The notes under the pieces are model-generated. The model was not told where the DNA came from. It did not search any database and worked only from the letters and a program-made list of their open reading frames with translations. Of a DNA stretch of 37,592 bases, positions 27,079 to 37,517 are shown one piece after another; the first letter of the stretch is position 1, and each line of letters opens with the position of its first letter. The DNA comes from Candidatus Parcubacteria bacterium (GTDB taxonomy: Bacteria > Patescibacteriota > Minisyncoccia > Phycocordibacterales > Phycocordibacteraceae): NCBI GenBank assembly GCA_024654305.1, contig JANLIU010000043.1, positions 1 through 37,592 of the forward strand, written 5' to 3'. Made by a program: the position numbers and the translations under genes.

Positions 27079-27351
27079 TTATTCAAAAAGATCGCTATGA
27101 GTTCCTGTGCGGGCGAGTATCACCTTTGTATCGCTCATTTTATATATAAGGAGCCAATCGTGTTCAAGGTGACATTCCCATAAACCTTCATACATCCCAG
27201 AGAGCTTGTGCGGATAGAATGCCGAGGTCAGCTTTCCATCTCTTGCCAGAAGAAAAGATACGATGTCGACCTTGTCTAAATCTTTGCCTCTACGTTTCTG
27301 TCGTACTATATCCTTTTCAAATCGCCGTTCGAAACTAAGTTCTCTCTGCAT
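27079..27351 (-). CDS. YafQ/RelE-family mRNA interferase toxin
   Basis: 90 aa; FERRFEKDIVRQKRRGKDLDKVDIVSFLLARDGKL...PHKLSGMYEGLWECHLEHDWLLIYKM...LARTGTHSDLF typical of YafQ. Confidence 0.92.
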   Translation of the reverse strand: MQRELSFERRFEKDIVRQKRRGKDLDKVDIVSFLLARDGKLTSAFYPHKLSGMYEGLWECHLEHDWLLIYKMSDTKVILARTGTHSDLFE

Positions 27352-27354
27352 GGT

Positions 27355-27621
27355 TTAAATTGATCTCAGGTAAGCAGAAAATTCCTTATGCGTCTTAAAT
27401 GTCTTTAGATTCTTTCCTAACCTAATATTCTCAATCACCCTGCGTGTTTCTGCATTCGGGACGTTGAGAGAAAATGGCATTCCTTTGTCATTGGCAATGC
27501 GTCGATAAAATACATTGATCGCTTCTGACGGGGACATACCGATCTGAGACAGTACCCTTTCGGCCTTCTTTTTTATCGAAGGCTCCATACGGGCGCGCAC
27601 GAAAGCTGTTTTTGTACTCAT
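27355..27621 (-). CDS. RelB/DinJ-family antitoxin
   Basis: KTAFVRARMEPSIKKKAERVLSQIGMSPSEAINVFYRRIANDKGMPFSL is a RelB/DinJ signature; ORF open to 27648, ATG 27621 preferred. Confidence 0.92.
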   Translation of the reverse strand: MSTKTAFVRARMEPSIKKKAERVLSQIGMSPSEAINVFYRRIANDKGMPFSLNVPNAETRRVIENIRLGKNLKTFKTHKEFSAYLRSI

Positions 27622-27655
27622 ACGGGCATTGTAGCACGTGTGTGCCACATTACAA
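27622..27655 (-). promoter_or_regulatory. TA promoter with embedded palindromic operator
   Basis: Minus strand TTGTAA (27655-27650) N16 TACAAT (27633-27628), 6 nt before ATG 27621; operator TGTAGCAC-GTGT-GTGCCACA at 27630-27649 (7/8 symmetrical arms). Confidence 0.65.
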
Positions 27656-34966: not shown

Positions 34967-36739
34967 TTATGATTCGCCTTTGAGAACTTTCCGAAGCGCG
35001 TCCTCGGGAACTTCAAACGGAGCCGATGCTCTGGTCGGCTCCCCGACCGCTTCGCGTCGGGGCTGTGCCTCCTGCTTACTCTTCTCTAACACTTCTGCGA
35101 GCGTGCCTTTAAGCGACTGCTGATTCTGCGACTGTTTCTGTTCCCTTTCCGCTCCGCTTTTTTCCGTCATCTTACGAAGAATTGCCTTCAGGTCTTCGGC
35201 GCTCTTGCTTGGCGGGGCCGGGCGTTCCATCGGAGGGCGTTGAATGAATGGTTGGGCGGGACGCTCATCCGCCGGGCGTTTCGAAAAGGTCCTCGGTTCT
35301 CCCCGTCCGGGCTCCGCCTGGCGGGGCCAGACCATTTTCTCCTCGCCCGCCGGCTTTGCATCCCTACTTTGCGAGACGCTCGGCGGCATCGCGCCTACAG
35401 GTTTGGGTTTCTTCTTCATACGCGCGTCAAAGGGTGCGGGAGCTGCGGCGCTCGCCATAAGCTCGTCCACGATGGATTTCTCAATACCCGCGCGCGGCGT
35501 AGAAAATTGTGCGCGCGATGCGGCGATGACCTCATTTCGGTGCGATACCGGCGGCGCCTCTATTGGCGGTATCGTGACTGCGGAGAATGGCGCGGAGCCT
35601 ACCCCGTCGATCATGAGTGTCATATACACCTGTGCAAAGCCTAGGCTCATAATATCTTCCTTGAGAAAGCGCGGGAAGAAAATCGGTTCGAGCACCTCGG
35701 CATCAAAGGGTCCCATGCGGAAGACGACCGTCGTACCCACGTTGCCGAAGACCGCATCACGAACCTCTTCCTCCATCTGCTCGATATACTGATTTGTGAT
35801 GATCAGATTCAATTTATATTTACGCGATTCAGAGAGGATCTCTGCAAATGTTTGGTTTGCAAAGTTCTGAAATTCGTCAACGTAGAAATAAAAATGCGGA
35901 AGCTTCTTGAGTTCTGGCGCGGGGAGATTGGCGCGACTCATGGCACCAAGGAAGAGGCGCGTCGTGAGCATCGAACCCAAGAGACGCATATTGGTCTCTC
36001 CCACAAGCCCCTTCGAAAGATTCATGATAAGGATCTTCTTCTCATCCATCATCGTGCGGATATCAAACGAAGACTTCGCCTGACCGATGATATTTCGGAT
36101 AAGCGGGTTGCCGGTGAATTGGCCAATTTTGTTCTGGATGGCCGGCGTCGCTTCCTGCGTATAACGGTCGCCATAATTAGCGAATTCCTTCGTCCAGAAA
36201 TCTTTCACAACCGGGTCCTTCACGTTATCCACCACCTTCTGCCGATATTCTTTATCGGTATACATGCGGTTCACGCCAAGCAGGGTCGCGTCCGGATATT
36301 CGAGCAGGGCAAGAAGTGTGTTCGTAAGAATGTATTCCATGCGCGCGCTCCACGCGTCTTCCCAAATCTTCTTGAAGGTCGCCATGAGCCCGCTCACTAC
36401 AAGGTGGCGCTTGTCGTACCCCACGTCTTCCATCACGTTAAAGGCGATGGGGTGCTCTAAATCGAAAGGGGCGAAGTAGACAACATCTTTGATTCGATCT
36501 TCTGGAATATAGTCGAGAAGCCGATCGACCGTTGCACCATGCGGGTCGAGGAACGCAATCCCCTCACCGTTCCTGAGGTCTTGTATCGCCAAGTTCTCCA
36601 GTAGGGTGGACTTGCCCATGCCGGTCTTCCCGATGACATACATGTGGCGATCGCGGTCCTTTGATTTGATACCGAAAGGAATGTATTTCCCGCGCGCATC
36701 GGTGGCGGCGAAATAGGTCACGCGCTCTGGATTTTCCAT
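34967..36739 (-). CDS. Type IV secretion/conjugative coupling-type ATPase (TraD/VirD4-like, DUF87/TraM-recognition)
   Basis: HMYVIGKTGMGKSTLLENLAIQDLRNGEGIAFLDPHG Walker A, FYFYVDEFQNFANQTFAEILSESRKYKLNLIITNQYIEQM Walker B; Pro/Arg-rich C-terminal tail. Confidence 0.9.
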   Translation of the reverse strand: MENPERVTYFAATDARGKYIPFGIKSKDRDRHMYVIGKTGMGKSTLLENLAIQDLRNGEGIAFLDPHGATVDRLLDYIPEDRIKDVVYFAPFDLEHPIAFNVMEDVGYDKRHLVVSGLMATFKKIWEDAWSARMEYILTNTLLALLEYPDATLLGVNRMYTDKEYRQKVVDNVKDPVVKDFWTKEFANYGDRYTQEATPAIQNKIGQFTGNPLIRNIIGQAKSSFDIRTMMDEKKILIMNLSKGLVGETNMRLLGSMLTTRLFLGAMSRANLPAPELKKLPHFYFYVDEFQNFANQTFAEILSESRKYKLNLIITNQYIEQMEEEVRDAVFGNVGTTVVFRMGPFDAEVLEPIFFPRFLKEDIMSLGFAQVYMTLMIDGVGSAPFSAVTIPPIEAPPVSHRNEVIAASRAQFSTPRAGIEKSIVDELMASAAAPAPFDARMKKKPKPVGAMPPSVSQSRDAKPAGEEKMVWPRQAEPGRGEPRTFSKRPADERPAQPFIQRPPMERPAPPSKSAEDLKAILRKMTEKSGAEREQKQSQNQQSLKGTLAEVLEKSKQEAQPRREAVGEPTRASAPFEVPEDALRKVLKGES

Positions 36740-36856
36740 CCCGTTAGAAATAGGACGCGGACGAATCTTTCGATTGTCCGAACCCTATCCGACTATGGCA
36801 AATAATATCGATCGCTCGAGTACACGAGTCGTGGCGTCCGCGATTTCTAACGGGAT
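36738..36856. repeat. Large imperfect inverted repeat (IR1), 22-bp stem with 4-nt bulge and 71-nt loop
   Basis: ATCCCGTTAGAAAT(AGGA)CGCGGACG at 36738-36763 pairs with CGTCCGCGATTTCTAACGGGAT at 36835-36856. Confidence 0.85.
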
Positions 36857-36870
36857 CCATCACTGTGAAG

Positions 36871-37014
36871 TATACCCGAACACTAAGAATGCCGTAAATC
36901 AGTTATTGCGTCTGGAGGCTCGTAAGTCCTACACAGCACCTCTTGATTCGAAACACTCATTCAGATATCGAGGCTGATTTAAGGACGCAACGGCATTCTT
37001 AGTGTTCGGGTATA
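36871..37014. repeat. Large perfect inverted repeat (IR2), 25-bp arms
   Basis: TATACCCGAACACTAAGAATGCCGT at 36871-36895 and its exact reverse complement at 36990-37014. Confidence 0.9.
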
Positions 37015-37016
37015 GC

Positions 37017-37040
37017 AAAATCCCGCTTATGCGGGATTTT
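37017..37040 (-). terminator. Terminator hairpin downstream of small membrane protein gene
   Basis: AAAATCCCGC-TTAT-GCGGGATTTT perfect hairpin with A/T flanks. Confidence 0.8.
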
Positions 37041-37250: not shown

Positions 37251-37517
37251 TCACACTGAACCCAACCCTGTTAAATACGATTTGAGGCGATTACGAAGGA
37301 ATAGTTTGCCGTGGTGGGTCTTTAAATATCGCTCACGATGCCGGGCGTCTCGTTCATCTAGACATGCTTCGTAATAAACGAGACTTAGCGGCAAACGGTC
37401 TTTCGTTGACTTAACCTTTCCTTTGGAATGTTCCTCAAATCGTCCTTTCAAATCCGAACTATACCCTGTGTAGAATTTCCCATCTTTCTTCGAGAAAAGA
37501 ATGTAAGTGTAAAACAT
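37251..37517 (-). CDS. GIY-YIG nuclease superfamily protein
   Basis: FYTYILFSKKDGKFYTGYSSDLKGRFEEHSKGK...LVYYEACLDERDARHRERYLKT signature. Confidence 0.92.
   Translation of the reverse strand: MFYTYILFSKKDGKFYTGYSSDLKGRFEEHSKGKVKSTKDRLPLSLVYYEACLDERDARHRERYLKTHHGKLFLRNRLKSYLTGLGSV

Follow-up and report, generated by a model that had tools for sequence, protein, structure and literature searches.

A non-autonomous mobile element of 136 bp, defined by its fold (class B1) and inserted with a 4-bp duplication into the TATA of a -10 box, is very probably what lies upstream of an ATPase gene near the end of the window, the whole stretch of 37,592 nucleotides analyzed here. Insertion, 4-bp duplication, the existence of a family and its conserved fold are well supported by the sequence comparisons. 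The family is apparently undescribed. What unites its members is less a sequence than a fold (a 21-bp stem, joined in long members by a pseudoknot), and we infer that this fold is what the mobilizing enzyme recognizes, probably as folded single-stranded DNA or as a cruciform.

The element and its insertion site

Perfect inverted repeats of 25 bp (36871-36895 and 36990-37014), separated by 94 nt devoid of an open reading frame, were found as the original prediction had described them. In 60 windows generated by a first-order Markov model with the same composition, the longest inverted repeat averaged 11.9 bp and never exceeded 17 bp. The element proper is 36875-37010, 136 bp with 21-bp arms, the outer TATA of each arm being a target-site duplication; the arms appear to span 25 bp because 21 bp are extended by a self-complementary TATA, and the predicted arm length is corrected in this sense. 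The gene-proximal arm (36875-36895, minus strand), whose length is fixed across copies, lies immediately upstream of the duplicated -10 TATA, and the gene-distal arm (36990-37010, minus strand) pairs with it across copies to form stem P1. The gene-proximal TATA (36871-36874), within the -10 box TATACT, and the gene-distal TATA (37011-37014) were assigned from the empty site described below and the 4-bp duplications of the family, and the distal copy also from the inverted repeat. Folding of the 144-bp strand as DNA is far above that of shuffles (z = -8.6), as is RNA folding on the two strands (z = -8.6 and -7.5).

The host gene (34967-36739, minus strand), in a genome of 668 kb and 78 contigs, encodes a conserved TrwB/TraG-like ATPase matched in 92 of 93 genus genomes, about 82 of them at orthologue level. 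Read on the minus strand, the order is a small upstream gene, a hairpin (AAAATCCCGC-ATAA-GCGGGATTTT), TATA, the element, TATA, CTTCACAGTG, ATG, a second element and the ATPase gene. A TATACT or TATAAT box a few bases 5' of the ATG is usual in the approximately 80 orthologous upstream regions, and the site is uninterrupted in the sister genome G367 (TTTTGG-TATA-CTTCTAGGG-ATG; support 100/96) and empty in G349 (...GCGGGATTTTGT-TATA-CTGAACATA-ATG). These empty sites therefore identify the 144 bp as an insertion that duplicated TATA. The hairpin at the far junction (37017-37040, AAAATCCCGC-TTAT-GCGGGATTTT), found by direct reading and unlisted in the terminator scan, is a probable terminator of the upstream minus-strand gene and abuts the TATA promoter in empty sites, e.g., that of G349. 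A divergent promoter pair sharing a strong consensus, without any insertion, would fit the GGGTATA read outward at both ends and the start codons found on both sides of 11 of the 64 B elements (classes B1 and B2) of the genus. However, the far end of the target reads TATAGC and runs directly into the terminator-like hairpin, and non-promoter copies carry 4-bp duplications; contradicted by these duplications and by the empty sites, such a pair is highly improbable.

A TATA-ended inverted repeat occupies the same -10 box in five genomes (G000, G027, G327, G366, and G021), and these carriers are dispersed over the ATPase gene tree (5 changes, of which 3 or more are forced), which indicates that the same box was hit repeatedly. 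Upstream-region comparison revealed that the repeat is missing from almost all ATPase orthologues of the genus, which argues against an invertible promoter, in which a recombinase would flip the 94-bp interior, swapping the -35 (TTTACG versus GCAACG) and switching the ATPase gene, with repeated inversion and conversion keeping the arms identical. The perfect arms do end inside the -35/-10 region, so that inversion would alter the -35, and Correia elements are reported to invert (PMC10969869); nevertheless, relatives at tRNA 5' ends and in 23S rRNA lack a switchable promoter, and no recombinase gene was present among the neighbouring proteins checked, which leaves this explanation very unlikely. 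The origin-of-transfer-like site originally suggested beside the coupling ATPase is not supported and is extremely improbable: it has adjacency in its favour, but the ATPase is present in nearly all genus genomes and the element in few, relatives stand beside many unrelated genes, and no relaxase was found among the neighbouring proteins checked.

According to the preferred reading, a mobile insertion, a staggered 4-bp event struck a minus-strand promoter at the TATA within its -10 box (TATACT). One copy of the duplicated TATA still completes a TATACT box, which lies about 14 nt ahead of the original start codon, and a -35-like TTTACG is supplied 18 nt upstream by the gene-proximal end of the element. 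Such a post-insertion promoter was predicted at 36869-36898 (minus strand), its sequence is identical in G027 and also before proS in G031, and it probably still works after the insertion. Elsewhere in the window, a RelB-YafQ type toxin-antitoxin pair was noted at 27079-27648.

Copies and fold of the B1 class

Since a plain nucleotide search of 297 genomes of the order with the 144 bp returned only the query itself, the family was searched by its ends and by a covariance model. The B1 (ends CCCGNACAC...) and B2 (ends CCCCGTGAGATA) sets were gathered either through their end sequences or with a model that was derived from seven long B1 elements and yielded about 20 more copies. With the model, 11 of 91 genus genomes were found to contain related elements, the interiors of which are as a rule unrelated, and the host genome itself carries relatives on contigs C5, C32, C44, and C74, recognizable by ends and fold and not by plain sequence. 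Thus, the sequence is single-copy but the family is not, and the lack of copies and conservation that would have spoken against the original prediction was not what was found. Exact 4-bp direct repeats, none of them palindromic, flank 11 of 19 independent copies (shuffled maximum 7), a count in which not all events are independent, as some copies share their site between genomes (TATATGGTCAAG in four); the draft assemblies are mostly fragmented, copies are not independent draws and the shuffles do not model phylogeny. The repeats seen (CAAG, CATC, CAGG, CGGG, CTAT, TTAT, and CAAA) set the duplication length at 4 bp, whereas the target's own TATA, being palindromic, is not independent proof.

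Among the 64 B elements, 45 have TATA/TATA flanks, and the flanks are unlike at some ends; an open reading frame starting with ATG lies 10-17 nt beyond an end in 40 elements, as compared with 4.5% of random or other TATA positions. Long B1 copies also occur away from promoters. The locations comprise -10 boxes, tRNA-gene 5' ends, at which L426 and L427 end exactly, DnaA-box-like sites (TTATCCACA), where the CTCG-ended elements L438 (=L190) and L441 duplicated TTAT, and a helix tip of 23S rRNA, where the stem of L434 (G376:C36:2816-2951) and L442 (G375:C2:52267-52403) prolongs the natural rRNA helix. One B1 copy lies upstream of a gene starting KLLIVESPTKARTIG, which we take to be topoisomerase I-like. 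A 253-bp B1 element, L125 (G001:C15:43-295), contains a nested palindrome (GGAACTCATTTCAAAACC/GGTTTTGAAATGAGTTCC).

In 13 copies, arm pairing extends over exactly 21 positions, with 91% of cells paired, and breaks off at position 22. The outer part of the arm (CCCGNACAC) is conserved in sequence, and inner columns show up to four Watson-Crick pair types, the covariation score of P1 being 0.53 versus 0.17 in shuffled and 0.05-0.13 in slid alignments. No sequence similarity was detectable between the interiors of B1 copies at different loci, the 94-nt interior of the target (36896-36989) included, and copies within one genome also differ in interiors and inner arms. The short words noticed in swapped order in the original prediction are real and correspond to a crossing (pseudoknot) helix pair, in which AAATCAG (36896-36902) pairs with CTGATTT (36974-36980) and TGCGTC (36907-36912) with GACGCA (36984-36989). 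The same layout, built from other sequences, was found in the majority of the seven long B1 elements first collected (summed helices 61, shuffled maximum 32) and recurred in 20 independent copies, where summed crossing helices reached 138 versus a shuffled maximum of 33 and 23 for nested ones; each crossing helix has at least 5 pairs in 11 of these 20 new copies and at least 4 pairs in 17. No pseudoknot was found in family A (see below) and B2, which served as controls, or in short B1 elements. The element is defined by a perfect 21-bp stem, in which the outer part is conserved and the inner part varies freely while remaining paired; this stem closes an interior with a crossing helix pair formed between its two ends.

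Recognition and mobilization

Beside 547 Watson-Crick cells, GT wobbles (12) are not above AC mismatches (10), and the constraint is therefore read as acting at the DNA level; on sequence grounds, it looks to bear on DNA rather than RNA. A structured cis-regulatory RNA or small RNA gene would be in keeping with the strong fold and with copies in transcribed RNA such as 23S rRNA. In addition to the wobble count, the lack of any Rfam covariance-model match over the gathering score within the target, its position upstream of the predicted transcription start and the many unrelated host genes all weigh against it; this alternative is very unlikely. Rfam matches of the other copies were all far below cut-off, mostly to microRNA hairpins. 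Of the structured non-coding RNA with a closing stem that had originally been proposed, the structure was retained, as a covarying 21-bp stem with a pseudoknot, and the RNA was not.

The MITE-like, non-autonomous element that had also been proposed fared better, with its inverted ends, 4-bp duplication, empty sister site and dispersed relatives. Like a MITE, the target is short (136 bp) and non-coding, has perfect 21-bp arms and a target-site duplication (empty site; 11 of 19 copies) and belongs to copies dispersed by ends and fold; however, these copies are not alike along their length, as descendants of an autonomous insertion sequence with the same ends would be. Their unrelated interiors and differing inner arms, unlike what ordinary MITE copies of a single recent source would show, count against the preferred reading. 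The target can thus be described as MITE-like without similarity between copies. An ordinary MITE without structural recognition, whose arms would seem to covary through quasi-palindrome template switching, is improbable but is the most serious competitor: Watson-Crick-only pairing without an excess of wobbles fits templated correction, and the outer arm is conserved in sequence like a transposase site. Nevertheless, it leaves unexplained the fixed 21-bp arm with its abrupt end and the crossing helices of differing sequence in independent copies. The pseudoknot argues for recognition, of folded single strands or cruciforms, rather than templated arm correction as the origin of the constraint.

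Neither an autonomous copy nor a transposase was found, and a long-range search never paired family A ends. IS1380-like elements have CC ends and 4-5 bp repeats. Across 16 carrier genomes, their transposases (PF13701) were either missing or scored under the cut-off, and they were rejected as mobilizer. A single-domain GIY-YIG nuclease gene (37251-37517) in the window is bracketed by an inverted repeat, ACCCTGTTAAAT (37265-37276/37534-37545), resembling family A ends. GIY-YIG genes lie within about 240 bp of three long B1 copies (the target, L428, and L438); as a partner of the element the gene was rejected, as the 12-bp bracket (37265/37545) is not general and GIY-YIG genes are not clearly denser near elements than at control loci.

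Family A and comparison with known systems

A second mobile element, of family A, occupies the ATPase start codon (36740-36854, minus strand; 115 bp) between copies of TGGA at 36735-36738 and 36856-36859 (TCCA on the plus strand). A reading frame runs on the minus strand from the old start codon through this element (36744-36860) to a TAA four bases before the recreated ATG. Family A is spread across many patescibacterial groups. Of 129 copies, 127 have T-A or C-G as their outer base pair, 83 carry an exact 4-bp duplication (shuffled maximum 38), and 107 create an ATG or GTG start codon with their gene-side end; -10-like boxes are most frequent 6-8 nt ahead of the old ATG. Of 77 lengths, 54 equal 1 modulo 3, and the old-ATG frame is open as far as a stop in TAACGGG in 38 of 55, compared with 10 expected from shuffled interiors and with 5 and 0 in the other frames. 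From this open frame and its stop, translation of family A seems to begin at the old start and to end just before the recreated one; the frame is apparently under selection, and reinitiation at the recreated start seems probable. Stacked insertions, with a B element in the -10 and an A element at the ATG, were seen repeatedly (L036, L156, and L236). Two long family A elements (L249 and L260; 272-275 bp), partly alike in sequence, lie at GIY-YIG gene starts in two genomes, and L349 (3024-3280) comprises three family A ends in tandem with 120 bp spacing, an arrangement to be expected were each insertion to restore its own target.

Several known systems resemble these elements in part. Correia elements (NEMIS), MITEs of Neisseria, are, like the target, approximately 100-155 bp long and gene-adjacent, have TA-terminated inverted repeats about 24 bp long, duplicate their target and carry promoter sequences. 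However, they form a sequence family with TA duplication, whereas here interiors are unrelated and inner arms vary yet remain paired; by description, B1 is further set apart by its 4-bp duplication, its CCCGNACAC ends and its insertion exactly in the -10 box. Integron attC sites have conserved ends and a variable loop. They are described as little conserved in sequence and as being recognized in the form of folded single-stranded DNA (PMC2727003), and B1 shares with them a folded hairpin with varying but complementary inner arms, but differs in its 4-bp target duplication, perfect 21-bp stem, pseudoknot and single insertions, no cassette array having been seen. rRNA insertions are described as common in Patescibacteria (PMC11270868); the stem-closed B1 insert in 23S rRNA resembles ribosomal intervening sequences, although B1 elements with 4-bp duplications are also present in promoters and at the ends of tRNAs. 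Family A, in turn, is comparable to Rickettsia palindromic elements and enterobacterial RU repeats, which are short mobile palindromes carrying reading frames and lying in genes, but it targets and recreates the start codon, and its frame stops just before the new start.

Both insertion points, the TATA at about -12 to -9 and, at leaderless start codons, the position after the first base (+1), coincide with the edges of the open promoter complex and would fit insertion into melted DNA, as would DnaA-box and tRNA-start insertions. A class of mobile DNA defined by fold and not by sequence, its stem and pseudoknot moved as folded single-stranded DNA, with 4-bp duplication, into functionally melted DNA, is put forward as a tentative and rather doubtful extension.

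Among the papers searched, none dealt with MITEs and Patescibacteria together. In the tiny, streamlined genomes of Patescibacteria, mobile DNA would be expected to be costly. The elements appear to be tolerated: they land on and copy the exact bases that define the start of transcription or translation, so the host gene keeps its signal. From a fold that is conserved without sequence, one could work directly towards the enzyme and towards the question of whether what moves is single-stranded DNA.
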